Assembly: GCF_020520425.1 (NCBI RefSeq)
Contig: NC_079487.1
Location: 134,950,385-135,014,384 of the forward strand
Origin: Spinacia oleracea
Lineage: Eukaryota > Streptophyta > Magnoliopsida > Caryophyllales > Amaranthaceae
Direction: 5' to 3'
DNA length: 64,000 nucleotides
Shown: in pieces, positions 15,208 to 64,000 of the stretch
How positions within the stretch are numbered: the stretch's first letter is position 1
Layout: every line of letters begins with the position of its first letter
Made by a program: the position numbers and the translations under genes
The notes under the pieces: generated by a model
What the model was told of the DNA's origin: nothing
The model's input: the letters and a program-made list of their open reading frames with translations, nothing else
The model's database searches: none

Positions 15208-16363
15208 ATAATATCATTTGCAAATTTTATTTGATATTTAATATATGACAATATTATCTGTAATTAAAAAAGTCAAAACTTTTTATCAATCAAAATGTCA
15301 ACGCTTGAATTTTTTCCTTGAGAAGTCACTTCCTATATAAAAAAATCACACCTAAATTAATTATGCCCTTTAGAACACTTCAAAGTTCAAAATACTTGAG
15401 TGGTTAAAGAAAAATATAGGAAAGAATGTTACACAAACATGTTTGGGTTGCAGAGCTTTACATTTTCTGTTATTTTATTTTATTTTCTTTATATAGAATT
15501 CATGTTTTAATCTGTTGATTAAAAGTGGACACCTTGACATCGACCTTAGGACAACATGTTGACATTTCCCCCCTAATATCTCATGCATAACTTTCTTTCA
15601 TTATTAACTTTGAAGTTTTGTTATTAGAGAATTTAAATGTATTGAATTTCATACTCCGTAAATTTTGAGATAAATTATACTACTCGTGCCATTAACTAGT
15701 TCTAAACCCGTTTTTGAACATGTTTTAACATAGTCATTGACCATATTGAGATGACTTTACTCTTATCAATTTAAGAGGATTTGCATAAATCATTTTCATT
15801 TGTTTTTCTTGCCTTTATACCATTATATTTATCGATCCAACCCATCTAGCCATTAGGTTGAGTTTATTGACCCAACCCTGACCAGCCATACGCCAAGCAC
15901 AACAAATCAAAACCAGGCATAATTTAATATGAACTGCTCATCCAACATTTTTTATCGAACCCCCTCACGGCCTCTCCATGTCTTCTCGCCAAATTTCTAA
16001 TCCACCTCAATCGACCTTATTAGTGAGCCGACACCTAATCAATTAAACTAAAAGTCTATCTAGCGGCTATATACGTGGGTGTGATGCTTGTGAATGATTT
16101 CCACCTTGGCACGGTGGTCGGTGGTCGGTGTCGGTGGCTGGCCTGGCCACCTTCACATTTAGAACTAGGCACGATTTCATTCAAATATCTAAAAGCCCAA
16201 AGTATTCAGAATTCTGAACCCAAACCCACACAAAAATAGCCTCAAAGTTCAGAAACATCTGGAACCTTCTATCTTTCCAATTTCCAGTGACCCCTTGTAA
16301 GAATTGGAGCAGAAAACAAATGGATTAGACTGAAAACTTCCACCGAGAGTCACCGTTTAAAAA

Positions 16364-19300
16364 ATGGCGGTAATCTCATTCTCTCTCCTCCGCCACCACG
16401 CGTCACCGTATCTAGCTCCTCCCACCACCGCCACCTTCCTCCTTCTCCGACGCCGATTCTCTCCCCTCACCACTACAATTGTTTGCAGAAACATCCATGA
16501 CAAAAGCAAGCAAGCTCAATCAAACGCGCTCAAGGCGGCGCGTGAATTCACACGCACCAAACACACACAATCTTCTCTTTCCTCACTCTCGAAACCTCAG
16601 AGTCTCTCTCCTAATCAAGCCGTAGGAACTGTAGCTTCAGCTCAAGCCAACTTCATGCGCGTTGTTGTACAATCCACTCCTCCTCCAGAAGAAGAAGACT
16701 CTGGAGCTTCCGAGATGGAGAATACGCACATTCCAGAAGGTTCTGGCGGAATTGAGCTTCTATGCGTGGTGAGAGCCGTGTTGAAGAAGATTAAGCGGAG
16801 GGTTTTAGTAGGGGATAGGGTTTTGGTAGGGTCAATTGATTGGGTGGATCGCCGGGGCATGATAGAGAATGTGTTTCCTCGGAAGTCGGAGATTCCTGAC
16901 CCTCCGATTGCGAATGCTGATCATTTTCTGGTGGTGTTCTCGCTGGATCAGCCTAAGGTTGAGCCGTATTCGTTAACTAGGTTTTTGGTTGAGGCTGAGT
17001 CTGCTGGATTTCCTCTCACTCTTGCTCTGAACAAATGCGAGCTCGTTCGCGATGAGGTTTGCGTGTCTAGCATTGATTAGATTGTTGTTGATTACCAGAT
17101 TAGTTAAAATTTGTTGCTCAAATGTGTATATGTTTTGAACTTTTGGAGTGGCATTGCGGGTTGTTGTACTGATATTTTGTGTGACATATGAGGAATTAAC
17201 AAAGTACTGTTTGGTAGATAGATAATGTGGTAGTGGAATGGAGGGAGAACATCAGTATATTAGCCTGTTAGGTTAGCTGCGTAGTGTTTGATTGATTGAG
17301 CTTAAAACCTTGAAAATGTTTTGGATGTTGAAAGTTGTGCTTCGAGTTTGATGATGTTTAGAGACAAACATACATAATATTTTGTGAAATGATGGGTAAA
17401 TAGGGCATTGGAGCAAGTTGGATGATACTTTTGAGCAAGTTAAAAAGAATCCAGGTTCAGCTTTTAGCATGATTGAGCTGAAATTTGTAACTGAAAAACA
17501 GTATTTTGATGTGTGTGTTGTATGTGTGTTTTCCACGTTTTTAAGAGTGTATGGTATGTTAGTTGTAAAATTTAAGTGAGCTCACTGCAGTGTAGTACTT
17601 TGAAAACTGAAAATTTTGTTCTGTCTGATGGTGCTCGGAGGCAATGTGCGTAAGTTTTTGTGAACTAACATAGGGAATGGAGTGTTGAAGACTTTGAAGA
17701 GAGTTGTATAGTCGCGTGGGAGCAAGTTCAATACAATGCAGGTGTTTAGTGCTTATGATTTTACTTACCTACTTACATAATATTACCCTCAATGTTAAGT
17801 GACAACTGACAAAAGACAGGAAGACAATCTTTTAATGCAAGATTGCAAGTAGCCTATCCTTTTAGTGGTGTCATGGAATTTTGCTAGGAACTGTTGTAGG
17901 TTTAATGATCACACTCTTTTGTTTATTTGGCTTGCTCATCTCAATTCAATTTGATTTTAGAGAAATTAGTGGTCAAACTTCAACCTCGAAAGCATGCGTG
18001 TGTTATTCAATAGAGGGAGTATTACAATAGTAGTTGCGTAGCATTTTACTGTGTCCGCTGCAATTAATATGCTGGGTGCTGAAGTTTGTGTTTTCAGATT
18101 GGTGAAACTTAGAGAATGTGTATATTTTCACAATTTGGTTGAAGAAACATGTTTGGTCTGAGTAGGATAAGATTTGTCAGAGGACATTCCTAACAGAGTA
18201 GGCGTAAACCATAATGATCCTAGGTTGAGATTAGAGTTACTCTCTAATATATGTCAGAGACTCAGAGTTACAAACAACGGGAAAGCTGAAAAGAATGCAA
18301 TCTTCTAGTGCCGGGAGCTTATGCTCACATCGATATCTGTAAAGTAGTTCGTCTTTGACTTATTTAGCTAGTGTGTTTACTTGTTCCTTGAGGCTTTCTA
18401 GGGTTGTGTATGAAAGAGGGGGGAACGAGTATTATTCTCTTTGAATTTTTGAGAGCGAAGTAAAACAAAGTGTTTTACCTACAGGTTCAACGGCCTCTAA
18501 GTTGGTCGATTTTGCTTGGTTGGCCATATTGTGTGACCTAAACTTATCCAATGTCTATGTTGCGGCTCATGTGGATTCACAAGCTCTTTTTTTATTTTAT
18601 TTTAAATCATTGGTACTCTATCTGTTTTAGTGATTCTTTGTTTCTAAAGTTGGTCAGTTTTGATGATGGAATATGCAGGTTCTGGTTGAGTGGAAAACTA
18701 GGCTTCGTCAGTGGGGATACATACCCATATTTTGCAGCGTTGAGTCAAAACGCGGACTTGATTCCCTCGCATTTTACTTGAGAGATAGGACAACAGTGAT
18801 TGTTGGTCCAAGTGGTGTTGGGAAGTCCAGTCTGATTAATGCCTTGCGAAGCACTGATCAAACCCCCACCCTTATGGAAGACGGTAGCTTGTTTGATCAT
18901 GTGGGTTTCAAATCCCTCTTGTTTTCTATGATCCTCTCATCTCTTAATTTTACAAATTATAATGTTATTCCGAAAGGTTCATAGCTTAATTGTCCTCTGT
19001 TCTGAAATGTGAACTATCAGATTTCAGGCAGCAAATGGTTTGACGAGCAGCGAGTTGGAGAAGTTTCTGCTAGAAGTGGAAGAGGGAAACACACAACTCG
19101 AAACGTATCTTTGCTACCATTAGCTGGAGGTGGATATCTAGCTGATACCCCAGGTTTCAGCCAACCTAGTCTAATGAAGGTGACAAAACAGACCCTCGCA
19201 CAGGCATTCCCTGAGGTAACTTCGGTTTCATTTCAATTTAAAACAGATATAACAGCCCATTTGGTAGTCGGTAATAAATGGGAGGAATGAGAATAAAATC

Positions 19301-22199: not shown

Positions 22200-22515
22200 T
22201 GTAAAGATGGCCGTGGGGAGGGCCGGGTCAGGCTGAGTCCATGCCAAACCCACATTGTATCAGGGCGGGTCGAGTCAAGTCCACACCCAGCCCACATTGT
22301 ATTGGGTTGGGCTGAAAAGTTCAAAAACAGGCCCCCAAGTCCATGGGCTTTCGGGCTGCCCGGGCCTTTCGTGAATCATGACTAAGCCTAAATTTAGCGT
22401 GCCGGCTCGAGTCATGTATTGTCGTGCTTTTTCCAAAAAAAGGCTGCCCATGGCCTACGACTTTGTGCTCGTGCCGAGTCAGTCGGGCCTTCGTTTGGCC
22501 CAGCCCACAACCATC
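22200..22515. mobile_element. Small TIR element with GGGCCGGG/GGGTCGAG-rich body
   Basis: The left end TAAAGATGGCCGTGGGGAGG and the right end, on the opposite strand TAAAGATGGTTGTGGGCTGG, are inverted repeats. The GC-rich, purine-skewed body is typical of decayed plant hAT-like elements. A truncated relative with the same terminus (CCACAACCATCTTTA) lies at about 29943-29957. Confidence 0.55.
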
Positions 22516-46620: not shown

Positions 46621-48214
46621 AATAGAAAAGACTGTCTGAGAACCGTGCTTAATATGATTGAAGATGCTGGTAAAGCTAATGCTTGGTAGAGGAGGCTTGA
46701 ACGTCATATGTCAAACAGAGGCTTAAAGCAAAACCAGCATTCATGGAAACGTTGTTTGCTAAGACGAAGAAGGTCCAAGTTGTTATTCCTGCGTGAGTTT
46801 TCTTTCTCTAGAATACAGTTTTACGAAGTTTCTCGTAGCTCTTTTAGTAGAGGCAGTGTACTCAATGCATCAACTTTTTTGGTTGCTTAAGGTGTCAATG
46901 GGGAAACCCGAAAGGGTGTTGGTGTATATTGTTTACAATGGAGCCATTTGTATCCAAAATTCTACTGTAGTAGATGTGCACACGAATGTCATACTCGTTT
47001 TTAGATCGCATGATGCCTTGTTGTGGAATCTGTTTTGGCTGGTCCATTGCCATTTAAATAACCGTAAAACATGATTTTAGGGTTGTCTTATCTTGAAGGA
47101 ACTAAGCTGCCATAATTTTTATATTATATTGTTTACTAGTTGACACATCTGTCGTCTTCTATTTTAAATATTTTGTGGTATATGATGTTCCATATAAATG
47201 ATTTTGTTGGGAATTGCTTCATGTCTTGAGAAGGAACATACGTAGGTTTGATTTGAACTGCTGACAAGTCCATGATTTATTGTTGTTTCTCAATTAAGCA
47301 CAAACATTATGAGAAACTTTGGCCTGCTGCTAAGCTTCTTCTCGTCGAAAACATACTCCTATCTAAAATTAGAAAATGGGGGAGGAAGAAGAACAATACA
47401 AAGGACGAAAATGGTGGGGTTACAACGGTCATAATGCCACATCATCTATTAACTTGTGCTAGCAAGTCGCATTTGAAACGAGTCTTTTCAAAACAGATCA
47501 ATACTAAAAGCTTGTGTTATTCTTAGTTGAAAAAAACACATCCATTTTTAAGAAGACCGACCAAAGATTGTATTTTTAGAATCAAACTAACCGACAATTA
47601 ACGTGTATAATAACAATTATTTTATTATAAAAAACTCATTAACAATAAATTCAGATATAAAAAGATCCAAATTAGGCCAATCTGACTCCAATATCAACTC
47701 GAATATTTTTTAAGAACTTGACCCAATACAAACCGGTCCAAACGACCCGCTAAATTTCCTACTCCTTTTACTCCAAGCGACAATCACTCAAAAAACCTTT
47801 ACAACCCATGATGTACCAATGAATCCAAGTATCCAAACCCACAAAAACAAAAAGAAACATCCTAAATTCTCATACCATGAAATAAAGTTAACCAACACAG
47901 ATCAACTTACTCACTCAACCACCTTTAATTAATTCTTGGCAAAATTAAAATCAAAACTAATTTTATTCATTAAAACAACTCCCAAATTCAGCAGCTGTAC
48001 TAATAATTAGTAGTAGGAGAACTGTAATCCCAACTGATAAAACCTTACCTTTTCAAATTCTTACCATTTTTCCATTATTAAACTCATCTACAAACTGCAA
48101 TTCACCGAATCCCACGACTCTTTTCCACCCAATCTCAAAAACCCACCAAATTTCTTTCCAAATTATGAACACCCACTTCCAAAAACAACACAATTGAAGA
48201 AAAACCCAGAAAAA
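46621..48214. other. Intergenic region upstream of the exostosin gene
   Basis: No gene recognised. The last few hundred bases are presumably promoter and 5' leader; about 47590-47760 holds an AT-rich stretch and a GACCCAATA/GACCCGC-like tract. Short open frames at 46700-47520 are not recognisable. Confidence 0.5.
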
Positions 48215-51200
48215 ATGAGCAATTGTGAGAAGCAAATGTATAAAAAAGCAGGATTAATACTTGCATTCTTAATAATTCTCACATTCTCATACTTTTTCTT
48301 GATCGGAATTTTCGATCTAAGAGGTTCTTATCTTACCCCATTTCTCCAATCTTTGCCGCCGACGGCGACACCCAACTCGGCCCCACCTTGCCGGAGTTTG
48401 TCCCCGTTGAGAGTTTACATGTATGATCTTCCCCGGCGATTCAACGTGGGGATGCTCCAGCGGAAGAGCTCTGATGAAACGCCGGTGACGGTTGAGACGC
48501 TGCCGCCATGGCCAGCGGTTTCTGGGTTGAGAAGGCAGCATAGTGTTGAGTATTGGATGATGGCTTCTTTGCTTGTTAAAGGGGAGGAGAGAGAAAATGG
48601 TGATGGGGTTTGGGTTGAGGAAGGGATGATGGAAGCTGTGAGAGTATTGGATCCAGAAATGGCGGATGTGTTCTTTGTGCCGTTTTTCTCTTCTTTGAGT
48701 TTCAATGTTTATGGGCATAATATGACTGATCCACGTAATGAACGTGATAAGCAACTTCAGGTAAAAGTATAGTTATGGTTTCTTGTTTATATTTGGCTGA
48801 TTTGCTGTTTTTAGATTGATGTTCATTGTTTTTTGATGTATAAAGAGCTTCAAAAAGCCAATGAAGTAGACGGGATTTGATCCAAGGTCTTTGTGTAGCT
48901 TGATATTGATTGTTTGTGTATGTATGTATGTATGTATGTATGCTTGAGGTCTTTGTGTAGCTTGATATTGATTGTTTGTGTATGTATGTAGGTTTAACTG
49001 TTTAAGGGTAGAATTTAGTACTAATTTTGATAGTGTAAGAATTGACTTGAGTGGTGAATGCAGTTGAAGTTTGGTCTTGGGAAAGGTTACATGTAGTTAA
49101 AGTGTAATTTAGTTTTGTTGTAGGAATAGGGAAAGAGAATGGTTGTTTCTCTAAAACTTGATTGTGGAGTGAATTGGAGCTGTTTCGCCGTTCATTAAGG
49201 GTTAATATTGTTTTTAAAAGATTGATTGGAAGTTGGGATGATTTGAATGCCTTTTGTAGTTTATGAGAAGAGATATTGTGGACTTGCATTGCTGTAAAGC
49301 CTGTAATGTGATGGTACATTGAGAGGATGGAGTTTATTGGTGATTTGATTTGTTTTTGTTTCATGAACTGCTTACAAAGATTGTTTGTTAAAACCTTAAT
49401 ATTCGAATGAGTTAATGGCTCACTCGACTCACTTCCCCTTTAGTGGGGGTCCAGACCCCTACAAGTCCCGGTTCATGTTTCACATTTGGAACACCACTGT
49501 GTCAATTGGTTCATGAGTAAGACTCCTGCCATTGATCGGATCCATATTGGGTTCCTGTCTTAGTTAAATGGCTTTAAAGTCGTGGTTTTGAATGTTAACC
49601 ATTATTAGTTCTCGTAAAATTTTGGTGTTATAGCTTTGTGATCTATGCAGTGAGTTTCTAGATGATCATTAGCCTTTGGTTGTTTCCCTCTATAATCTCT
49701 CAGTAGCAAGTCTACTGAAATGGAGAAAATGGGAAGTGAAATGAAGAACGCGAATTTCCATTTCCTCTTTTCCGCTTCACTTTAGGGTCCTCCCTAGTAA
49801 GAAGATTGAGGTGAGGGGCTATGACAAAGTAGTGTGGCTTAGATTCTTCTAGTTAATGGAAATATTCTTGGCAGTGCTTTCTAAATTATTAGGCAATTGA
49901 TATTCCCGCCGGGACTTTTTTGGTGGGTGAACACTCAGTTGACTAGGATATTTGGTTAAGGTGAGAAAATATTATGACTACAAAGCTCGTCTATAATTTC
50001 GACCTATTGAGCTACTTGAGTCTGTTCGTGTTGGATGTGTGGCGGTGACAAGCTGTTTGGATAGTGTTGATTATTTATCTTAGTGATTTTCCAAGCTCGT
50101 GGTTTTATATGAAGAGTTTCCTATTCTCCATTTGACCTTACAGAATGACAGGAGCCTCTTCTAGTACATGATAGCTAGTTAACCACTTGGCACCTGCCAC
50201 CTATGAAGTGAAAAAAAACTGTGGATGTTTCTAATTCCTGGAGATTACTAGTGAAGAACAGGAAATCTCCTATGTTTCTGCCTATTTAATCTTTCATCTA
50301 GATCCTAATGTTTTTACTAAGTGTTTACCAAGTTGCACTATTGGTTTTAGGTTGACATGTTGAAGTTTTTGAGGGAGTCTGAGTACTGGCAAAGATCAGA
50401 AGGCCGAGATCATGTCATCCCTATCCATCACCCAAATGCTTTTAGGTTTCTTCGGGAGCAGGTAAACGCATCAATTCTCATTGTGGCGGATTTTGGTCGT
50501 TATTCGAAGAGCATGTCAAGTTTAAAGAAAGATGTTGTGGCCCCATATGTCCATGTTGTGGATTCATATACCGATGATGAAACACCCAGCCCCTTCAAAT
50601 CTCGCACCACCCTGTTGTATTTCCGTGGCAGGACTGTAAGGAAAGATGTAAGTTCAACTTCAGGCCAGTATTTCATCATTCATTTAAATATTTGTTTTGC
50701 TGTTAAGGGCTTACGGGTAGCTTTTTCCATGTTTAGGAAGGTGTTGTTCGTGCTAAATTGCAAAAGCTTCTGGAAGGTTATGATGACGTTCACTTTGAAA
50801 GGAGCTTTGCCTCACAGGAAAGCATAAAACTGGTATGTCATTTCAGTAACCGTCCTTCTGATTTCGTTGTAGTGCCACGATGGTTGTGATGTATGTTGAT
50901 TTGACAAAGTGCTCTCTAAAAAGTAAAAAGTAATATTATGTGAATCTTGGAACCCTTATTATTTTTTTAAAAAATAATACTCAACTAAACCGAAGTGCTC
51001 CACAGGGTTGTTTCTTTCATCACTGATCCTCATTGTCCATTAGCCACCAGGGGTAAAATAACAGTATGAACCCAGTAGTAGTAGTAGTTCCATACAAATG
51101 GAGTCTTGGAAAGTGTATGTGTAGTCTGTGTACTTTATTCTCTGACCAATCTAAACCCGAGGGAGCGTTTGGTATGGGGTATTCAGGAAAGGGAAACAGA

Positions 51201-52520
51201 ATGAGAAGGGTTGGTTCCCTTTGTTGTTGTTTGTAATGTCATTTTAATCATTCCCTTTACCCCTTCTTACCCCCCACACCCCCATGGTTTTTGCATTCCC
51301 TTTCCTACACCACCAGCACACCCAACAACAACAGTTTCCAACCAAAACGCCCCACCACACCACGACGCTATCATCATCAGAGCCTCCCACAACCACCTTC
51401 CCGCCCTACCACCACCCTCACACTACCTTGCCTCCCTACCACGTCCACCACCAGCAAGTCCCCTCTGCAACCACCATAACACCACCCCTCTCACGAAACC
51501 CCTACCCCACCGTGGATTTTTATTGGTGTAGTGTCTAGGAGAGAAATACTGAGTTTATCATAAAACGACCAAACAACATTTTAGGGTTTTCCTTTCTATT
51601 CCCTCTGAATCCCTTTCTTGGTTTGATTCCCTTTACCCCGTTTGTACCAAACTCCCCCTGAAGGTAGATTTAATAGTGCAGGAGAAGCCCACTTTCATAA
51701 CTAAAAGCAAACTCGGAAATAGCCGTTGAAGATGGTTAGACATGGAAGTCTAGATAGCACTGTTAACAGAAAGAGGGACATCCATATCTAGGATAGATGC
51801 AGTTCCTATTTTTCTCTCTCTTTTTTTGTTTCCTCCTATTTTTCTCATTTTACAACGAATATCATTCTTGTAGCTAGGGCCTAGGGGTGTCAAATCGGGT
51901 CATCGGTTGGTTACGGGTCGGGTATAATTTGTTCGGGTATAATCGGATAATGTAGTTGTACGGGCCATTATGTTTATGCGGATTGAATGTGTGAATTTTA
52001 TTTTTTGGTTCACTTCGGTTTTTGTTAGAAATCGGTTAGGTCGGGTCAGTTTTTGACAGCCCTACTTGTAGCTAACACATCTCGTTTCTGACAGTCCACA
52101 CAGGGAATGCGAAAATCAAAGTTCTGTCTACACCCGGCAGGAGATACCCCATCCTCATGCCGGTTATTCGATGCTATAGTCAGCCATTGCGTACCCGTCA
52201 TCGTTAGCGACCAAATTGAGCTCCCCTTTGAAGACGAACTCGATTACTCCGAATTCTCTCTCTTCTTCTCAACTGACGAGGCACTAGAACCCGGTTATAT
52301 GATCGAAAAGCTTCGACAATTCCCAGAAGAAAGGTGGCTTAACATGTGGAACAAGCTGAAGAGTATTTCTCACCATTACGAGTTTCAATACCCACCAAAG
52401 AATGGTGATGCAGTCAATATGTTGTGGAGACAGATTAGGCATAAGCTCCCTTCGGCTAAACTTACTGCTCATAGAACTCGAAGGTTAAAAATTCCTGATT
52501 GGTGGGGAAGGAAAAGGTAG
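48215..52520 (+). CDS. Exostosin-family glycosyltransferase, GT47 (At1g67410-like)
   Basis: Four exons, 48215-48760, 50351-50647, 50737-50832 and 52095-52520, give 454 aa. A short basic cytosolic N-terminus and one membrane helix (about 10-32) indicate a type II Golgi protein. The GT47 exostosin domain follows, with conserved blocks KVYMYDLP-type ([14 protein letters not shown]), [48 protein letters not shown] and [22 protein letters not shown]. The family builds cell-wall polysaccharides; the closest named relatives are ARAD-like putative arabinosyltransferases, but the exact substrate is not known. The first ATG (MSNCEKQ) is used. Intron 3 contains a MITE, a MULE-like MITE and the fragment duplicated near NMD3. 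Confidence 0.95.
48850..48995. repeat. Tandem duplication with (GTAT)n in exostosin intron 1
   Basis: GGTCTTTGTGTAGCTTGATA and TTGATTGTTTGTGTATGTAT occur twice, separated by a GTAT microsatellite. Confidence 0.85.
51160..51660. mobile_element. MITE of about 500 bp in exostosin intron 3
   Basis: The left end GGGAGCGTTTGGTATGGGG and the right end, on the opposite strand GGGGGAGTTTGGTACAAACG, are inverted repeats. The C-rich interior opens long but meaningless proline/threonine frames. TIR type resembles PIF/Tourist or hAT MITEs; the target duplication is unclear. Confidence 0.6.
51672..51808 (+). repeat. Segment of exostosin intron 3 repeated upstream of NMD3
   Basis: It shares AATAGCCGTTGAARATGGTT, CAGAAAGAGGGACAT and ATATCTAGGATAGATGCAGT, in the same order and orientation, with 59451-59609. 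The other copy has a roughly 30-bp extra piece. Either a segmental duplication or a dispersed repeat. Confidence 0.8.
51877..52065 (+). mobile_element. MULE-like MITE, family X, in exostosin intron 3
   Basis: The terminal inverted repeat TAGGGGTGTCAAA / TAGGGCTGTCAAA (opposite strand) is flanked by an exact 9-bp duplication TTGTAGCTA (51868-51876, 52066-52074). The interior has ATAATCGGATAATGTAGTTG, shared with the copy at 54567-54719. The acceptor of exon 4 lies 20 bp beyond the right duplication. Confidence 0.75.
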
Positions 52521-54221
52521 TGCCAGTAAAAACCAGGGTTTGTACTTGGTACTTTGTACCTAACTGTACTTATTTTTGTGTGTACAGTATCACATTTTAC
52601 AGTCTGAAAATTCCCTAAGAAGGGGAAAATCATAGGTTATTCACTTATTCTTATTACAGTTACATGTTTTTGATCCATCTGTTTGTAATCTCTGTATTAT
52701 CTTTGTAGCATTATTTTTGTGCTGCATTATGATGGCACAATCCCTATATTAAAAACACCTGAGGTATATTACAGGCTGTGATGTCTGACTTTTTGAGTTT
52801 TGGTGCATTATTGTTGCGATTTTGCGACGGACAATACCATATTTCTAGGATCCCCTTTCCCCCGTTTTTGTTTGATGTACTTGTTGTTAATTATGTAAAT
52901 GCAGAGGCATGTTTGTTCTTGTCTAATCTAACAAATGATTAGTGATAAATACAAATGCAAAGCAGCAACGTGACAGTAGTTAAACAAAGATATGCAGTGT
53001 ACTTGTAGCAGTTTGACTTTCTTCATTTGAGAGGTCAAAGATGTACCAAAAGACGCGATTCAAGTAGGAACTCTTTTGAAATTAAAGGAGTATCGTGTAC
53101 ACTCTGGTATATAATGAACACTAGTTTAGGGGCCGTGCAACGCACGGCTACTACTAAAATAATTTATTATTTTAATAGTAACTAAAAGACTTGTGATATT
53201 AGAAAAACATGAAAGTAAAAAGGATATATGAAAAAGTATAAATTCAAAATTGTGTAAAAAAAATATTCAAATGAACTAAATTTGCATATTACTATACAAA
53301 GTTAAAAGTTATAGTCGTTTACTTGAATGTAGAACGATCTACTAACGTTAACCAAACCCGAATGACTCAAGACTAATTTTCAAAAAGACCCGAGCATAAC
53401 CGAGTTAGTCAAATACAACATATTTTGAATTGAGTAAAATCTTGATAAATAAACTTATATGTTTAGTCTACTTACCATGTACTCCGTATTATTATTTTAA
53501 TTAACATTCTTACTTACCAGTTACCATGTATTATATTATTAATAGAGACTAACATTAGAAGTTCATTTATCAATATTTTTTATATTTCTTATCAGATTAA
53601 AAAGTTATAATAATACATAAATAAAATTATATCATAAAGGAAAAAATAATACTGATTTAGCTTTCCTCCAATAATATATTATGCAGTACATATCTTTGGT
53701 AATTAAAATATATTTTTATCTTAGTTTCCTAAAAAAACGTAATGTAATTTATTTATTTTAAAATAAAAAAATAAAAAAAATTTGGCGGGAAAAAATCGCA
53801 CCAGGAAATGACATGTCATTCCTAGTGTCTCTTTTAGTATATAGTAATAGAAAGATAATAGATCCTATTGATATGAGAGTATCGTGTACATTGTGGTATT
53901 GGGTGGAATCAAGAATGATATCAATGTGGTATGAGTTTGAAACTTAATTTTAAATACCATGCGCTTGGTTCAAGTTCGGGATGAGTATCTTTTTCTTCTA
54001 TTTGATACATGGAGTACAAGTATGATCCAAACTCACCTCCCCTAGGTTTCTGAACCTCATAACCTGAGGGTTTAGGGGAAGTAAATTTCAATAACTGATA
54101 TGTATAAGTAAAAATATAGCATGACAATTCTGTAAATACACTGAAATTTCAATTAAAAATGAAAACAATGGTATAATTAAAGAACAATGGTATAAACAAC
54201 AATGGTATTAAAAAACAATGG
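52521..54221. other. Intergenic region between exostosin gene and NOC2 promoter block
   Basis: The first 250 bp are exostosin 3' untranslated region. The remainder holds the repeat described at 53085-53901 and an AACAATGGTAT simple repeat (about 54165-54225) that abuts the duplicated promoter block. No gene seen. Confidence 0.5.
53085..53901. repeat. AT-rich repeat with CCGTGCAACGCACGG motif, flanked by direct repeats
   Basis: AGTATCGTGTACA followed by GGTAT occurs on both sides (about 53088-53110 and 53880-53900). Between them a segment begins ACTAGTTTAGGGGCCGTG with the palindrome CCGTGCAACGCACGG, and ends in TTTTAGTATATAGTAATAG. A related ACTAGTTTTGAACCGTGCATCG end lies at about 63752, near the right edge. 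Superfamily not assigned. Confidence 0.45.
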
Positions 54222-55124
54222 TATACCGTGCCCATGTTATGTATATTTATAAATGTGTTTATAAACACATAACGGTTAGCCGCCTATTCGTCCTCGGTGG
54301 GTTAAGGTACGGGTTTAAAACATCCAACAAAACACAATAATATACGTTTAGACCATTTTAAACTCATACCTAGAAGTCGCGAGCTAAACACCACCTTAAG
54401 GTTGCCTAACTTACCTTCATTGTTGAATTGTTCATGGATACCTCGATTATTAAAACATTATTATTGGACTTCCATTGTTGGACTTAAAGGGTCAAATGCA
54501 AAATAGCCCAAGCTTAAAAGAAGACAAAACCCAATTTAAGCCGAAAGGCCGGTCTAGCCGTCAAAGCCAGTTATGACTGTTAAAAACTGACCCGATCCAA
54601 CCGATTTTTGACAGAAATCAAAGTGACCTGAAAAACAAAGTTCACACATTGGATCTACATAAGCACAATAACTCAGTACAACTACATTATCCGATTATAC
54701 CCGACCCGTAACACCCCTTTCAAAGGTTTACCGCCCGACCCGGGTACCGACTTTCAGCAAAAAAAACTGTGAATCTTTCCCCAAATAAAACAGCTGTAAA
54801 ACCCCAGCTTCCCATTTCTGATTACCATCCCTCTTAAACCCTGAATTTCGCTACCGTTCGCTGTTTTCCGGCAGCTTTTTTCTCTTCTCGTCTTCAATCC
54901 CCAGGTACTTTGATTTCTAATTTCATTAAAATACTTTGCAAATCCTTCCTTGTGATAATGATTCTTTTTATTTTGTGAAAAATTTGGTTTACGCTGTTTA
55001 ATTTTCGCTGAATTTTATGGAACTTCTTGTTTATTGATGTTTGGTGGAGTTGTTGAATTAGATGATAATACTTAATTAATCGATGATTCTTAACTGTGTA
55101 TGATTTTTGGGGGAAATTCTGCCT
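54222..55124 (+). promoter_or_regulatory. NOC2 promoter, 5' leader exon and intron 1 start (duplicated block, copy 1)
   Basis: This block is homologous, base for base over most of its length, to 59610-60569 in front of NMD3. It includes upstream sequence, the leader (TTCCGGCAGCTTTTTTCTC), the splice donor CCCAG|GTACTTTG after 54904 and about 220 bp of intron 1, up to GGGGGAAATTCTGC. The acceptor (TTGCAG, 55327) precedes the NOC2 start codon by 18 bp. Candidate motifs are one site II element AGCCCA (54505-54510) and a one-base-off telo-box AAACCCTGA (54836-54844). Both motif types are associated with ribosome-biogenesis genes in plants. A family X MITE sits at 54567-54719. Promoter activity is inferred. 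Confidence 0.85.
54567..54719 (-). mobile_element. MULE-like MITE, family X, inside the NOC2 promoter block
   Basis: The NMD3 copy of the block reads straight through this point (CCGTCAAAGGTTTAAC), so 54567-54719 is an insertion of 153 bp. TCAAAG is repeated at its borders (54561-54566, 54720-54725). On the minus strand it shares GGGTATAATCGGATAATGTA with the copy in exostosin intron 3. Confidence 0.8.
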
Positions 55125-55345
55125 ATTTCTCCCTCTTCATTCTTGTCAGCTCTCTAAAAGTTCAAATCTTTACTGCCCCCTTTCCCATATTTCTCTTAGG
55201 TGTACTACTCAATCCAGCTCTTTAATTACCAATTCGTCGAAATCAATTTTCACCCCCCTCCCTTTCTACTGGGATATTGCTCATCAATTAATAAGTTCCT
55301 GATAACTGTTTGAATTGTTTATTGCAGTTAACTGAATCGAAAATC

Positions 55346-58300
55346 ATGGGTTCAAAGAAAAAAGGTAATTTCAACTTCCAATTCTTTATACTTTTAGGAT
55401 TTTTATCCATTTTCATTTATGCCCAATTAGTTAGTTTAGCTGATTATGATGTTTTTAAAGGTGGGTTTTTTGGTTTGAATTTGAATTGCAGTAAAGAAAT
55501 CAAATAATGTTGTATCAGATGAAGTGGGGGATAAGATGGAAGCCAAAGAACATAAGAAAGAGTTGGAAAGTCTTAAGGAATCGGTTAGACCTTTTACTAC
55601 TCTTTTGTATTTTGGTTAATCATAGTAATTTGGTCTGGATAAACATGGTACATTTGGGGGGTTTTGGATGTTAATTGATCATTAATTTTGGTGCAGCAAC
55701 CAGAATTTTATGAGTATCTGAAAGAGGTGGACAAGGAGCTCCTAGAGTTTGATGATGAGGGTAATGATGTGAGTTTTACTGTCTGTTGGCTATATTAGCT
55801 TGTATTTCATGATTGGTAATAGTAATGTTTTCGGATAGGATGATGATGAAGTTGATGAGGATGATGCTGAAATTGATGGGGATGATGATGATGAAATTGA
55901 AAATGAGGAGGATTTGGACGATAGTGATGTCGAGGAGAAGGTTGTTAGGTCAAAAAAGGAAGAAAGCTCGGGTAGAACTATTATCACTATGGAAATGGTT
56001 GAATCCTGGTGTAAGGGTATTCAGGAAAATGAGAAAATTGCTCCTGTACGCTCTCTGCTGAAAGCCTATAGAGTAGCTTGTCATCTTGCAGAAGAAAGTG
56101 ATGAAAAATCCTCAGAAAAGTTAACTACAATGTCTAAAGCTGTTATGAACAAAGTTATGGTAGAAACTTTGACTAATATCGATGGGATTCTTCGCAATTT
56201 GATGAATCTTCCTGCTTATGGAGGAAAGAAAGAGAAGTTAATTGAGGTCAAGAACACAAAAAGTTGGAAGAAGTATCAGCATTTGGTGAAGTCATATCTT
56301 GGAAATTCATTGCATGCTTTGAACCAAATGACAGACGCAAAGGATATCTCATTTACTTTGAAGCACTTAACTAAATCATCCTTGTTCTTGGCTGCTTTCC
56401 CAGCCTTTCTGAGGAAGTATATTAAGGTATGCCCCAATTCTTTCATCATTTGCCTTGTTGCTTTTGTAGTAAATTTTCCTTATCAGAAACCACTCTTGCA
56501 TTGTTTCTCTTGGCAATTTTATGTACGACGGTGCAAATTACAACTCTGTTGCTTATCACGACAAAGCATGCTTATTTTGCTTAATATAGAGTACTCTTCT
56601 AAATGATGTGATCATTTCCTTATCTTGTGATTCGACTATTTCCTTACTTAACAATTAACATAGTAAGATTTGCATTCTTCTATTGATTGGTCACTGACAA
56701 ATGAATTTGTGAATACGATCTTTGTGATTTTTGTCAGGTTGTTCTGCACTTTTGGGGTACTGGAAGCCGGGACCTTTCATTTGCAGCATTTTGGTTCCTA
56801 AGAACTCTATGTGTCCAACTTGGCACTGATTGTTTGGATGAGTGCTTTAAAGGGTTGTACAAAGCTTATGTCATGAACTGCCAGTTTGTAAATGCAACTA
56901 AGTTGCAGCATATCCAATTTCTTAGGCAATTGTTTGTTGAATTTATGTTGGTGGGCCTTCCAACCGCATACCAACATGCCTTTGTTTTCATTCGACAATT
57001 AGCGATGATTTTGCGGGAGGCATTGAACACGAAGACAAAGGTTAGTCTTTTTGTGCAAAATCACTCTTGGTTTGGAAGTATTTGTTTTAGTTATACATGC
57101 CTCATTATTTGCGAATAGAGTTTTATACCACTCTCTTTTTTGAACATGGTTTGAAGCATTTGGTCCTGTGAATCTGAGATGGATGCTTACACTTCTGTTA
57201 CTTCTGCTGTCATTTCTTCTAGGAATCATTCAGGAAGGTTTATGAGTGGAAGTTTATCAATTGTATTGAGCTTTGGACTGTAGCAATCCGTAAATATGGT
57301 CTGGAACCTGACTTTCAACCCCTTGCTTATCCATTGACTCAAATAATTTCTGGAGTAGCCCGTTTAGTTCCAACTGCTCGTTACTTTCCTCTTCGAATGC
57401 GTTGTGTTAGAATGCTCAACTGTATTGCTGCTGCAACCGACACTTTCATACCAGTTTCCATGCTGCTTTTGGATATGTTAGAGATGAAAGAACTGAACTG
57501 TCCACCTAGTGGAGGTGTTGGCAAAGCTGTTGACTTGCGGACAATACTCAAGGTACAATTTTCTCTTCTCGGGTTGCTCCAAGCGTGTGATCACTTTTTC
57601 CTCTCTCTTAACTCGTGAATTCCTTTTTATAGGTCAGCAAACAAGCACTTAAGACTCGGTCATTTCAGGAAGCATGTGTGTCTTCTGTGATTGACGAATT
57701 GGGTGAACATTTGGCTCAATGGAGCTATTCTGTTGCTTTCTTTGAATTATCTTTTATACCAGCTGTTAGATTGCGTAATTTTTGCAAATGCACCAAAGTT
57801 GAGAGGTTCCGTAAAGACATGAAAGAACTTATTCGACAGGTATGTTCTCTGTGATGAATAGTAATTGTACCTCCATAAATAGAACTCGGTACACATCATA
57901 TGGCATCGTAGAACATTTATTTATTTCTTTCCTTTTCCTTTTATCCCTTGCTTATAACATTTATTTGCTTATACTAAACTGCTAACTATAAATGCCTGCA
58001 GATTGAGGCCAACTCAGAATTTACAAACAAAAAACGTGCAACAATCTCTTTCTTGCCAAGTGATCCAGCTATATCGTCTTTCCTCGAGGTTTGCTTTTGA
58101 TATGTATTGTTTATCTTTTCAGTAGCCAAATTCATGCATACATCAAATGTAATCTACGGATGTTTACAGATACTCCTATTCTTAATTAATTTCATACTTG
58201 GGTTGGCAGAAAGATTAAGAATATTGGGTAGAGAGAGAAACATTAGAGAAAGTGTAGAGAGATGGGAAGTATAAAGTCTATTAGGGTTATTTGTTTTCTA

Positions 58301-59083
58301 TTGTTTCCCTTTCCGTTTCTAACATTTAGTTTCCCATGTAATATAAACAAAATGCATGGTTCTTTTAGGAGGAGAAGCAGTCTGGTGCTAGCCCCTTGTC
58401 AAAGTATGTTGCTACATTACGCCAAAAAGCTCAACAGAGGAATGTCTCTGTATCAGAATCCAGGTTCACTACTGTGCTTCTTATATACATTTGTGGATAT
58501 ATCATACTATATGTTTATTCTGAAAGAACACTCATTTTTATCATGTCATCCAGTGTCCTTTATGGTGCGGAGCCACCCATTTCCGATAAAATGCTAGCAG
58601 AAAGTGATGATGAAGATGAAGATGAAGATGAAGGAGACAAAGGTGAAGCAGTCTTTAATTCCTTCTGGACACAACAGAAAGAAACGAGGTATGACATTGA
58701 CGAGTATAGTATTATATTATATTCCACGTTTTACAGGAACTTAGCACCAAATCTTTGGTTTTCTAGTTTCTGATCATACGTGATTTGTTTGCAATTGCAG
58801 GGATAATAAGCCTCCTCCAGTGGATGAAAAAACGCAGAAAAACAAGAAGAAATCGAAGAGCACGCAAAAGGACGCAATAGATGAAGACATTGTAGAGGAT
58901 TTGGTGCTAAGTTCAGATGAAGATGATGAACCCATGGATGATGACTCTCTACCAGAAGAAACTGTTAAAACAGAAAAAGGGACCTCGAAAAAACGGAACA
59001 AGCGAAAGCCTACTGTAGATGGTTCGGTGAAAAATGAACGGGTAAACAAGAAGGGGGGAAAGAAGAGAAAGCGAAGTCACTAG
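55346..59083 (+). CDS. NOC2: Nucleolar complex protein 2 (Noc2), pre-60S assembly factor
   Basis: Eleven coding exons, 55346-55364, 55492-55583, 55697-55768, 55839-56426, 56738-57040, 57223-57552, 57633-57839, 58002-58088, 58369-58463, 58554-58688 and 58801-59083, stay in frame and give 736 aa. Noc2 pairs with Noc1 and then Noc3 to carry 60S precursors from the nucleolus to the nucleoplasm. The N-terminus is basic, then strongly acidic (about 60-95). The long helical Noc2 domain follows, with conserved blocks such as [59 protein letters not shown] and [16 protein letters not shown]. The tail alternates acidic and lysine-rich stretches ending [11 protein letters not shown], a likely nuclear signal. 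The fit is to the NOC2 (At2g18220) branch rather than REBELOTE. Confidence 0.95.
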
Positions 59084-59450
59084 CCATATTACATATAATT
59101 TGGAATTTTGGAATTTTTTTTGGGAGGCTTGATTAATAGAGGGATGTTATTAAGCATGTTATTAAGGATCAAAGGTACTTTGTGCACGTTAGAAGAATCA
59201 CATCACCAGAAAATGTAAAAATAATAGAATATCATGATTCTTTTTTGCTCTAACGTCCATTAATGGATTGATTTTTATATTTTTCTAGTTTTGATCATGA
59301 GTTTAAGCATTGATCATTCTGGTTCATGGTTATTTTCTGAGAATAAAGGCCATTGGAGAAGATTATCTGAACGAGAAGATTATCTGAATTTAACTGAACT
59401 TATTTGAACTTATTTTATCTAAGTTAAAATATGTTGAACAGAACCGAGTC
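59084..59450. other. NOC2 3' region
   Basis: 3' untranslated sequence and spacer. A GAAGATTATCTGAA direct repeat and a TTATTTGAACTTATTTT motif (about 59355-59430) resemble the end of a small MITE. No gene. Confidence 0.5.
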
Positions 59451-59609
59451 TAGTGCAGGGGAAACCACTTTCGTAACTAAAAACAAACTCGAAAATAGCC
59501 GTTGAAAATGGTTAGACATCATGTCTAGATGCACTGTTAGGGCTACGGCATAGATGACCAGCCTACAGCAGAAAGAGGGACATTCATATCTAGGATAGAT
59601 GCAGTTCCT
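59451..59609 (+). repeat. Copy of the exostosin intron 3 segment, upstream of the NMD3 block
   Basis: Homologous to 51672-51808 in the same orientation, and directly joined at 59609/59610 to the duplicated promoter block. This order (intron 3 piece, then block) mirrors the order at the exostosin-NOC2 locus, with about 2.4 kb missing in between. Confidence 0.8.
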
Positions 59610-60569
59610 AAACACATAACGGTATACTGTGCCCCTGTTATGTGTTTATAGATGTGTTTATAAACATAACGGTTAGCCGCCTCTCCGTACTCGGTGGTTT
59701 AAGGTACGGGTTTAAAAAGTTTAAAATATCCAACCCAACACATGATATGCGTTTAGACCATTTTAAACTCATACCTGAATCCGCGAGCTAAACACCACCT
59801 TAAGGTTTCCGGTTTTTGGTTTTTTGATTTTGTAAATCATATTTCGTATGATTTAGATTGAATCATGAACTAAAAGATAATATTACTTAAAGTAATCATG
59901 TTAATTTTGAAAATTGGCAACAAAAAACTGGAAACTACTTTTTATGTTTTTCATATTTGAATTTTAGTTTTGTCAAAAAGAGAAACTAGAAACAAAAAAA
60001 CGATACCGAACAGGCCAACTTACATTCACAGTTGAATTGCTCAAGGATACCTCGATTATTAAAGCATTATTGGACTTTAATTGTTGGACTTAAAAGGTCA
60101 AATGCAAAATAGCCCAAGTTTAAAAAGAAGACAAAGCCCAATTTAAGCCCAAAGGGCGGTCTAACCGTCAAAGGTTTAACATCTGACCGCCCGACCCGGG
60201 TACCGACTTTCAGCCAAAAATTGTGAATATCTCCCCAAATAAAACGGCTGTAAAACCCCAACTTCCCTATTTCTGATTACGATCCCTCTTAAACCCTAAT
60301 TTCCGCTACCGTTCGCCGTTTTCCGGCAGCTTTTTTCTCTTCTCATCTTCAATCTCCAGGTACTTTAATTTCATTAAATACTTTGCAAATCCTTCCTTGT
60401 GATAATGATTCGTTTTATTTTTTGAAAATTTTGGTTTACGCTGTTTAATTTTCGCTGAATTTGATAGAATTTATTGTTGATTGCTGTTTATTGGAGTTGT
60501 TGGATTAGATGATAATACTTAATTATCCATGATTTCTTACCTGTGTATGATTTTTGGGGGAAATTCTGC
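59610..60569 (+). promoter_or_regulatory. NMD3 promoter, 5' leader exon and intron 1 start (duplicated block, copy 2)
   Basis: Homologous to 54222-55124 in front of NOC2, from GGTATACTGTGCCC to GGGGGAAATTCTGC. Three site II elements AGCCCA (60111-60116, 60135-60140, 60146-60151) and a perfect telo-box AAACCCTAA (60291-60299) lie just upstream of the leader. The leader ends CTCCAG|GTACTTTA (donor after 60359) and intron 1 runs to CTCCAG (61694), 14 bp before the NMD3 ATG. A family B MITE sits at 59812-60018. Promoter function is inferred from position, motifs and conservation between the two copies. Confidence 0.85.
59812..60018 (+). mobile_element. PIF/Tourist-like MITE, family B, inside the NMD3 promoter block
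   Basis: The NOC2 copy of the block lacks this segment (AAGGTTGCCTAACTTACC is continuous there). On the minus strand it begins GGCCTGTTCGGTATC and shares TTCATGATTCAATCTAAATC and AAAAAGTAGTTTCCAG with the element in the F-box gene intron (6565-6768). Confidence 0.8.
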
Positions 60570-60768
60570 AAAAATTCGGCCATATCCTGGAATGATGCTA
60601 TATGTAAATTTGATCAATCCTAATCTCATATTAGCGTTATTTAGAAGGATTGAAGCTATGAAATAGTAGGTGTATTACTTAATCGTGGTTGTAAATGAAC
60701 TTTAATCTAACCAAACAATCGGAAGAGTATAACTTATTGTTGCGACTTATGAGCACTGGTGAATTCGA

Positions 60769-61363
60769 GATAGTGTTGTGAATTTGTGATGTTACCAAGT
60801 TTTGCAAGAAGTGGAAGAGGCCTCTTTTATCATGCTACTAACAGTGATAAGATTTAGAGGTTTGAACTTTGAAGGGAAAAAGAGAAGAAGTTCCTGTTGC
60901 AATAAACCTCATTAATATGGTATTCCTAGGACCACATACCAGCTCTACGATGTAATTGTAGTAATTTTTTTGTTTGGAATTTGGTGTTAAGTCTTGTGTA
61001 TTTAAGCTGCTTCTCTTTTTTTTTTTCTTTTGTTATATTTTATGGCGAATTCGATTCCGAGGATTTTTTTTTTCTTTCTGTGATTGGGGGTTCAATTGGG
61101 TGATAGTGTTGTGAATCTGTGATGTTACCAAGTTGTACCTTGCAAGAAGTGGAAGAGGCCTCTTTTATCATGCTACTAATAGTGATGAGATTTGGAGGTT
61201 TGAACTTTGAGCTTTGAAGGGCAATAGAGAAGAAGTTCCTGGTGCAATAAACCACATACCAGCTCTATGATTTAATTGTAGTAATTTTTTGTTTGGAATT
61301 TGGTGTTAAGTCTTGTGTATTTAAGCTGCTTCTCTCTTTTTTTCTTTTGTTATATTTAATGGT
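60769..61363. repeat. Tandem duplication in NMD3 leader intron
   Basis: Copy 1 (about 60769-61044) and copy 2 (about 61102-61363) share GATAGTGTTGTGAAT, CTTGTGTATTTAAGCTGCTT, AGAGGCCTCTTTTATCATGC and CATACCAGCTCTA. The NOC2 intron has no counterpart, so this arose after, or outside, the promoter-block duplication. Confidence 0.9.
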
Positions 61364-61708
61364 GATATGATTGAAATTTTCTTTGACAATGGATCGGTTT
61401 CTGTTTAATGGTGAAGATTGAAATTATGTTTCCTAGTGACTTTGTTTCTTTGACTACGGATCTGTTTCTATGTTTTGTGTTAATTAGTTGTTTCAGTGGG
61501 TTCTATCTTCTATGCATTTTCCATTATGAAACCTATCACATGGTTATTTGGTGAAACTAGAACTAGTCTTTCATGAGTTTCATATAATTTCGTTTTTGCT
61601 GAAGTCAAATTATAAACTAATATGAAATCAGATTGAGAATTGAGAACTAATTGTAACTATGAGCCCTGATTTTCATTTTTTTTCTTTACTCCAGAATTTC
61701 CCATCACA

Positions 61709-63259
61709 ATGGCACAAGAAAATGGTATGTTTGTTGTACATCAAACCGTTGGCAGTGTTCTATGCTGCAAATGTGGCATCCCTATGCAACCAAATGCAGC
61801 CAACATGTGTGTGAGGTGTTTGCGTTCCGAAATCGACATTACCGAAGGTTTGCTGAAACAAGTGACAATTTTATATTGCCCAGAATGCGAGACCTATTTG
61901 CAGCCTCCAAAGACTCGAATCAGGGCTCTGCTAGAATCAAGGGAGCTTCTAACATTTTGCCTAAAAAGGTTGAACCTGGATAAAGCCAAAGTCACATTGG
62001 TCCATGCCGAGTTTGTGTGGACCGAACCACACTCGAAGAGGCTCAAGGTTAAATTGAGAATTCAGAAAGAAGTCCTCCACGGGGCAGTTCTAGAACAAGC
62101 TTATATTGTTGAGTATGTTGTGCACCATAATATGTGTGACTATTGTAATAGGCTTCAGGCAAATCCAGATCAGTGGGTGGCATCAGTTCAACTCCGGCAA
62201 CACGTTCCTCACAGGAGGACTTTCTTCTACCTCGAGCAACTTATTCTTAAACATGATGCTGTTTCCCAAGCTATCAGAATTAAGCAGATCGTTCATGGAA
62301 TCGATTTCTTCTTCTCCAACAGGAGTCATGCTGTGAAATTTCTGGAGTTTGTTGGTAAAGTTGCTCCCATCAAGAGTCGTAGTGACAAAGAGCTTGTTTC
62401 TCAGGATTCCAAGAGCAACACTTACAATTATAAGCACACCTTCTCAGTTGAGATTTGCCCCATTTGCCGCGAGGATCTGGTGTGTCTTCCTCCTAAAGTT
62501 TCAAACAATCTCGGGAATCTGGGCCCACTTGTGATTTGTACAAGACTGACCAACAGTATAATGTTGATGGATCCAAACACCTTGAGGTACTGTTTTCTGG
62601 ATGCTGATCAATACTGGAGATCACCTTTCAAAAGCCTGCTTAATAGTAGGCGGCTGGTGGAATATATCGTGCTAGATATCGACAATGTTTCACCTGAAGT
62701 TAACGTTTCTGGGTCAAGGTACGCTTTGGCCGATGCCCAAGTAGCCCGTGTATCAGATTTTGGAAGGAACGATACCATATTTCACATCAGGACACACTTG
62801 GGTCATCTTCTGAGTCCCGGGGATTACGCCCTTGGTTATGATATATATGGGGCTAACCCTAATGACTCCGAATTGGACAAATACAGAAGTCTTGTTCTTC
62901 CCGAAGTCATATTGCTAAAGAAGAGCTACGAAGAGAAGCGTCAAAGAAAGCGTGGGAAGCCCCGTGCTTGGAAGCTTAAGAAACTTAACATGGAGGTCGA
63001 TGACTCGGGTAACGCTAGAGTTGACCAGGATAAGGTGGCGAATGAGTACGAAGAGTTTTTGAGAGATTTGGAAGAAAATCCTGATCTGAGGTTTAACGTG
63101 TCATTGTACCGCGATAAGGAATACCAACCATCGGAAACAGCTTCTATGACTGATGATGGTGAACAGGTGCCCTCTGTGCCCCTGGATGAGCTGCTTGCTG
63201 AACTTGATATAAAAGATGAAGATGATGAAGAAGCAGAAGGCAGTAACATGAAGGAGTGA
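61709..63259 (+). CDS. NMD3: 60S ribosomal export protein NMD3
   Basis: One uninterrupted coding exon of 516 aa, full family length. NMD3 is the adaptor that binds the joining face of pre-60S subunits and links them to the CRM1/XPO1 export receptor. The N-terminal zinc-binding cysteines are Cys19/Cys20/Cys22, Cys34-x-x-Cys37, Cys57-x-x-Cys60 and Cys143-x-x-Cys146. A CPIC motif follows near 253. A basic nuclear-import stretch lies at about 404-428 (EKRQRKRGKPRAWKLKKL). A leucine-rich export signal (PLDELLAELDI, about 491-501) sits in an acidic C-terminal tail. Its leader intron and promoter lie in the block shared with NOC2. Confidence 0.97.
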   Translation: MAQENGMFVVHQTVGSVLCCKCGIPMQPNAANMCVRCLRSEIDITEGLLKQVTILYCPECETYLQPPKTRIRALLESRELLTFCLKRLNLDKAKVTLVHAEFVWTEPHSKRLKVKLRIQKEVLHGAVLEQAYIVEYVVHHNMCDYCNRLQANPDQWVASVQLRQHVPHRRTFFYLEQLILKHDAVSQAIRIKQIVHGIDFFFSNRSHAVKFLEFVGKVAPIKSRSDKELVSQDSKSNTYNYKHTFSVEICPICREDLVCLPPKVSNNLGNLGPLVICTRLTNSIMLMDPNTLRYCFLDADQYWRSPFKSLLNSRRLVEYIVLDIDNVSPEVNVSGSRYALADAQVARVSDFGRNDTIFHIRTHLGHLLSPGDYALGYDIYGANPNDSELDKYRSLVLPEVILLKKSYEEKRQRKRGKPRAWKLKKLNMEVDDSGNARVDQDKVANEYEEFLRDLEENPDLRFNVSLYRDKEYQPSETASMTDDGEQVPSVPLDELLAELDIKDEDDEEAEGSNMKE

Positions 63260-64000
63260 ATGCGATGAGCTCTTTTAGAATCTGTAAAGTTTCTTTGTCA
63301 ATTGCAATTCTGCTTTTGAAAGGTCCATTCCTCTGTTTTTGTTTAAAATTCCATACTTTTTTTTGGTCTTCTGGAGTGTTATATGCATCCCTTCTGAATA
63401 CATTAGCTTTCTTTAATCTTTTGCACTTTACTACTACTACTAGCTCTCTATTCCCCCAATCCTTTCTCTCTCTTTTTTTGTGTGTGTGTGTGTGAGAGAG
63501 AGAGATTATCGTATGCAAAACCACTTACCACCTAAAACTCTGGACAAAAGTAAGTGAAACAACTAATCTGGGAAGGAGGGAGTATTCCGTGATAAAAGTT
63601 GTATGTTTAACGGTTTCTCCTAAGCCTATAATTAAAAACCTTGTGATATTTCTAAACTCAAGTCTCTATTGAATGGTCAATCAATTAGTTTGTTCATCAA
63701 GTCTATATTTCTGAATACGAGGTATACAAAAACGCACACATAATAGTAATTACTAGTTTTGAACCGTGCATCGTTAATTTTCGTACATATTTTTTTTATT
63801 ATATCATCGTATACAAATAAGCGTTTTATAAGTTATACGTGTAATAAAAAGTTATGATATATCCCTTTTCAAGTTAGAGTAAAAATGTGTTCTTAATATT
63901 TAAAATGTAAATGCATAAGGCACTCGTAGTAAAATCGGAGTTATGAAATGGGAAATTCAATAAAGGTAAAACTCGAGTTAGTTATTCGTGTGATCTCACC
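63260..64000. other. NMD3 3' region and right edge
   Basis: 3' untranslated sequence, a (GT)n(GA)n microsatellite (about 63478-63506), a GGAAGGAGGGAGTA Stowaway-like end (about 63572-63585) and, from about 63752, a repeat end related to 53112 (ACTAGTTTTGAACCGTGC). No gene. Confidence 0.5.

Follow-up and report, generated by a model that had tools for sequence, protein, structure and literature searches.

According to one report (PMC3022908), the promoters of plant ribosome-biogenesis genes typically combine a telo box, no more than about 50 bases from the transcription start, with redundant site II elements, and 46 of 49 Arabidopsis rRNA-processing genes have a telo box. The site II and telo box layout is reported for ribosomal-protein and rRNA-processing genes alike (PMC3022908 and PMC3212954). 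Another known system is regulatory shuffling by tandem duplication in Drosophila yakuba, in which duplications cutting within genes move a promoter and an untranslated region (UTR) before other sequence (PMC5460883); such variants segregate as polymorphisms and give rise to chimeric genes or to the recruitment of sequence that was not transcribed. We analyzed a 64,000-nt stretch of spinach (Spinacia oleracea) contig NC_079487.1 (G+C = 36%; hereafter the window, whose positions serve as coordinates), in which a promoter-like block lies in front of two neighbouring unrelated genes, NOC2 and NMD3. Like the plant promoters, the block has redundant TGGGCY motifs with AAACCCTA lying downstream of them. 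Unlike them, it occurs here as two diverged copies, and some of the strict motifs present in the copy before NMD3 (copy B) are missing from the copy before NOC2 (copy A).

Copy A (54217-55122) and copy B (59618-60569) are connected by three collinear matches on the same strand (BLASTN; E 6e-150, 1e-56 and 2e-55; Table 1). With insertions left out, they are 91.8% identical, and the 59 differences in 723 aligned bases (31 transitions and 28 transversions, besides 13 insertions or deletions) correspond to a Kimura two-parameter (K2P) divergence of 0.087 ± 0.011. The duplication of the block is real. An initial annotation made from the letters alone had described copies of about 0.9 kb before the two genes, and the alignment bears this out; the copies are not continuous, as copy A has an extra 163 bp and copy B an extra ~205 bp, and the edges had to be adjusted. 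The left edge is at ~54212-54217 in copy A and ~59611-59618 in copy B. The right edge is sharp: the final 29 of 29 bases before 55122 and 60569 are identical and the sequences beyond are unrelated. Similarity runs past the predicted splice donors, for 218 bp in copy A and for 210 bp in copy B, and stops abruptly within both predicted leader introns (54905-55327 in a hand-made GT-AG model of NOC2, and 60360-61694 in NMD3), as had been noticed originally.

When the window was compared with itself by BLASTN (E up to 1e-8), no third copy of the block was uncovered. It is highly improbable that the block is a member of a dispersed repeat family lying by chance before two genes. Dispersed repeats do occur in and beside the block, and its copy number is known for the 64-kb window only. 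However, both copies in these 64 kb stand before genes of the same strand and each ends in a predicted leader intron, and no terminal repeats or target duplication were noticed by eye at the block ends. Near the left end of the block there is a palindrome-like stretch (54242-54273 and 59637-59668), in which copy A matches copy B also in the reverse orientation (26 of 32 bases).

The names of both genes were corroborated by Pfam. The spliced NOC2 model of 736 residues, with its ATG at 55346, a stop codon ending at 59083 and no internal stop, matched Noc2 (PF03715, E 1.2e-101), and its first 597 residues, when searched, matched four distinct Noc2-family sequences in PDB. NMD3 matched the family of that name (PF04981, E 1.3e-70) as well as NMD3_OB and NMD_SH3, together with six distinct NMD3 sequences in PDB (best E 2.6e-146). 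Both coding frames are intact. The two 80-base leader stretches (54825-54904 in copy A) contain no ATG, 0.5 being expected, the donors are near-identical in the two copies, and AG acceptors precede both ATGs. One upstream-plus-leader segment lies before unrelated genes, with a sharp edge within the predicted transcribed region. This supports the earlier proposal of unrelated coding sequences behind one duplicated module, made up of a promoter-like part, a leader, a donor and part of intron 1. No snoRNA (small nucleolar RNA) or other known RNA was matched in Rfam at the gathering score, either in 47000-64000 or in the whole window. In viral contigs, seven pattern matches to NMD3 relatives were obtained and none was confirmed.

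Motifs were scanned in strict form (site II TGGGCY, telo box AAACCCTA) and in the shorter forms GCCCA and AAACCCT, which are used in PMC3212954. Copy B has three strict site II motifs in reverse orientation (60111, 60135 and 60146) and a full telo box downstream of them. It looks like an ordinary promoter of the class expected for a plant ribosome-biogenesis gene, and a promoter reading of the block is plausible. Copy A has a single strict site II motif (54505, reverse orientation), and its telo box is reduced to seven of the eight bases, the last base of AAACCCTA being missing, so that no strict telo box is present. The distance from site II to the telo box is 331 bp in copy A, where a repeat lies between them, versus 145-180 bp in copy B. 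This poorer strict motif set and the repeat-widened spacing weaken the idea, put forward in the initial annotation, that NOC2 and NMD3 are under matched control. We also considered whether a site II cluster is rare in itself and rejected this, because another triplet lies within 60 bp at 22289-22344, where no gene was assigned; the cluster counts only by its position.

Base composition at the right edge of the block bears on the direction of copying. The block part of the leader intron has 10% C and 18% G, and the NMD3 intron beyond the edge is similar (C 13%, G 20%), whereas the NOC2 side beyond the edge (55123-55327) has 27% C and 10% G. In overlapping 205-base windows, the C excess of this NOC2 stretch was reached by 4.4% of 12760 on the + strand, but by none of the 185 covering the remainder of the NMD3 intron and by none of the 265 covering the other NOC2 introns joined together. 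The 224 bases at 55123-55346, the last of which is the A of the NOC2 start codon, contain no ATG (2.2 expected). ATG-free windows of that length make up 2.5% of the + strand, and 0.9% show the C excess too. Both features coincide at ten places on the + strand: 55123-55346, both block copies, the start of a GT47 gene and six unassigned places. From its composition, 55123-55346 is a candidate for the original 5′UTR of NOC2, which weakly suggests that the block was received by NOC2, where this gene may retain a start of its own. On this evidence it is somewhat more probable than not that the NMD3 promoter was copied onto NOC2 by local duplication.

We consider the opposite direction unlikely, although it requires no more events than the favoured route described below. 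In that case the block would be native to NOC2 and its copy would have been placed before NMD3, for example by a tandem duplication of NOC2 in which the second body was deleted up to the NMD3 leader region. A minisatellite with 16-bp units (54162-54224) adjoins the left edge of copy A, its units resemble the first bases of that copy, and as it runs into the block it could be old local sequence, in line with a NOC2 origin. However, the composition breaks at the edge of copy A and not at that of copy B, the strict promoter motifs are fewer in copy A, and no clear trace of NOC2 was found in the NMD3 intron (tblastx with the whole NOC2 region, best E 0.07). When only 55123-55340 was compared with that intron, an 18-base match appeared (E 0.008), which was taken as chance. 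On the other side, a dispersed repeat (59451-59610) ends about 10 bases or less from the left edge of copy B; its other copy, 51674-51808, is located within a predicted GT47 intron (~92% alike outside gaps, with one 27-bp insertion or deletion). Neither this repeat nor the minisatellite settles the route.

Our best explanation, to which we give an even chance, is that a local duplication brought a promoter of the plant ribosome-biogenesis type to the 5′ end of NOC2 and left both genes behind the same type of start. The copied segment would comprise the site II cluster, the TATA-like element, the telo box, the leader exon, the splice donor and ~0.2 kb of the leader intron. Its source would most likely be NMD3 and its landing site the 5′ end of the neighbouring NOC2, and splicing of the leader intron would join each gene's start to its own coding part. 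A simple route would be a tandem duplication of ~5.4 kb, from the NOC2 5′UTR (55123) to NMD3 intron 1 (60569), by which a second NOC2 would become fused to the copy of the NMD3 leader; the first NOC2 would then have been lost with its own promoter, giving the present order. The direction and the route are inferred, as are the use of either start in vivo and any co-expression of the two genes. About 425 bp to the left of copy A, at 53781-53792, lies TTTGGCGGGAAA, which we take to be like an E2F site and which is possibly part of an older promoter.

Several results weigh against this explanation or limit it. No leftover of the spacer between NOC2 and NMD3 was seen to the left of copy A (best E 0.08), and the tandem route therefore needs a deletion ending at the block. 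A first-order Markov score points in the same direction as the composition only weakly, 18% of window positions scoring as high, and the C excess as a mark of gene starts has the 64-kb window alone as its basis. Divergence is uniform along the block (K2P 0.099 in the distal part, 0.103 in the site II part, 0.090 in the core, 0.054 in the leader and 0.072 in the intron): differences are homogeneous over these segments (chi-square test: p = 0.75), extra conservation of core or leader is not significant, and conservation gives no sign that both genes are driven by the block. At motif bases the copies differ at 3 of 26 positions (2.1 expected), a frequency close to that of the other bases, so no selection to keep the two copies active is apparent; the motifs have been neither preferentially retained nor preferentially lost. 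The contrast between the copies is also smaller with the shorter motifs, as GCCCA occurs twice in copy A (54230 and 54506) and three times in copy B and AAACCCT once in each. Therefore, calling copy A degraded depends on the motif used.

The uniform divergence would also agree with a reading in which the block before NOC2 is a decaying duplicate of little or no use and NOC2 starts in its own C-rich 5′UTR at 55123-55346, a possibility compatible with either direction of copying. The ATG-free, 5′UTR-like stretch directly before NOC2 agrees with such a decay, as do the single strict site II motif, the incomplete telo box and the repeat between the motifs of copy A; copy B has three such motifs, and its telo box is complete. 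Nevertheless, copy A has kept AAACCCT, the TATA-like element, the donor and the leader (56 of 59 bases identical to copy B in the leader segment 54851-54909), while 55123-55346 has no site II or telo box. We regard this possibility as doubtful.

The extra sequences of the two copies give a relative date. That of copy A lies between site II and the TATA-like sequence and resembles the reverse complement of 51933-52059 (82%). TCAAAG flanks it on both sides, and the corresponding site in copy B, GTCAAAGG, is uninterrupted. By its ends and target features we take it to be a hAT-type miniature inverted-repeat transposable element (MITE). A related element at 51882-52064, inside the GT47 gene, has ends of TAGGG(G/C)TGTCAAA type and is presumably a hAT-like MITE as well. 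The extra sequence of copy B has no counterpart at the matching place in copy A, and no clear target duplication was seen around it. Because each copy has a different repeat, the duplication most simply predates both insertions, and the same difference argues against an assembly artefact. If plant sequence changes at 0.7-1.3e-8 substitutions per site per year, the duplication would be about 3-6 million years old; a slower rate of 2e-9 would make it about 22 million years old.

The features of the locus are listed in Table 1. Within the NMD3 leader intron there is also a tandem duplication of ~280 bp (60769-61048 and 61102-61365, 82% identity). Elsewhere in the window, an open frame on the + strand (16361-17080) has a Pfam match to RsgA_GTPase.

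Table 1 Features of the NOC2 and NMD3 loci in the spinach window.
Feature	Position	Strand	Remarks
BLASTN match pairs (copy A/copy B)	54217-54406/59618-59810; 54408-54566/60017-60173; 54730-55122/60186-60569	+	
Copy A, U1, distal upstream piece	54217-54406	+	Against 59618-59810: 184 aligned bases, 90.8%
Copy A, U2, piece with single strict site II	54407-54566	+	Against 60016-60173: 157 aligned bases, 90.4%
Copy A, repeat insertion	54567-54729		Relative at 51933-52059; TCAAAG flanks
Copy A, putative core promoter part	54730-54825	+	TATA-like AAATAAA at 54783; P segment 54730-54850 against 60186-60305, 91.6%
Predicted NOC2 leader exon	54826-54904	+	AAACCCT at 54836; donor CAG/GTACTTTG; start predicted
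Predicted NOC2 leader intron, block-derived first part	54905-55122	+	54910-55122 93.1% identical to copy B
C-rich, ATG-free interval from block edge to NOC2 ATG	55123-55346	+	Candidate original NOC2 5′UTR/start, now mostly intronic
NOC2 coding region	55346-59083	+	736 aa, 11 coding exons; hand-made GT-AG model
Copy B, U1	59618-59810	+	Aligns with 54217-54406
Copy B, repeat insertion	59811-60015		Extra ~205 bp; relative 6565-6737, reverse complement, 75%
Copy B, U2, piece with three site II motifs	60016-60173	+	Alignment and motif scan
Copy B, putative core promoter part	60186-60280	+	TATA-like AAATAAA at 60237
Predicted NMD3 leader exon	60281-60359	+	Telo box AAACCCTA at 60291; donor CAG/GTACTTTA; start predicted
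Predicted NMD3 leader intron, block part	60360-60569	+	Edge at 60569
Predicted NMD3 leader intron, remainder	60570-61694	+	Acceptor CTCCAG ends at 61694
NMD3 coding region	61709-63259	+	516 aa, intron-free; Pfam and PDB matches

NOC2 is an assembly factor of the 60S ribosomal subunit and NMD3 is its export adaptor. Co-expression in ribosome biogenesis is usually explained by short motifs shared among separate promoters. If our explanation is true, copying of a whole promoter-leader-intron module between pathway neighbours would be a one-step alternative, and its effect on NOC2/NMD3 co-expression would become testable in relatives that have or lack the duplication. In its fullest form, an old duplication, perhaps of millions of years, would have given NOC2 the promoter, leader and leader-intron start of NMD3, the original NOC2 start would survive within the new intron and serve as an alternative promoter, and the two pathway partners would be co-regulated; we offer this as speculation that is rather improbable as a whole. 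What is unusual at this locus is that donor and recipient would be neighbours in one assembly pathway, which may be chance.

Events in which a promoter is captured by duplication are already known, from Drosophila and, reportedly, from the Escherichia coli long-term evolution experiment. There citT is said to have captured the promoter of rnk when a tandem duplication put the promoter of this neighbour before it; this case differs in being bacterial and laboratory-selected and in having no leader intron. In one open-access library, we found no paper on citT promoter capture by tandem duplication, no plant case, by title, of a duplicated promoter before adjacent genes, and no paper on NMD3 and NOC2 promoters in Arabidopsis, which does not imply that such cases are unpublished. 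For human segmentally duplicated regulatory elements, co-regulation through duplicated non-coding DNA that is not transposons has likewise been proposed, although those are element families with chromatin and CRISPR interference (CRISPRi) data (PMC13333887). The D. yakuba variants share with the spinach locus the movement of a promoter and UTR before another sequence by duplication. In spinach, by contrast, neither coding frame is broken, the divergence between the copies amounts to 8% and both genes act in a single pathway.

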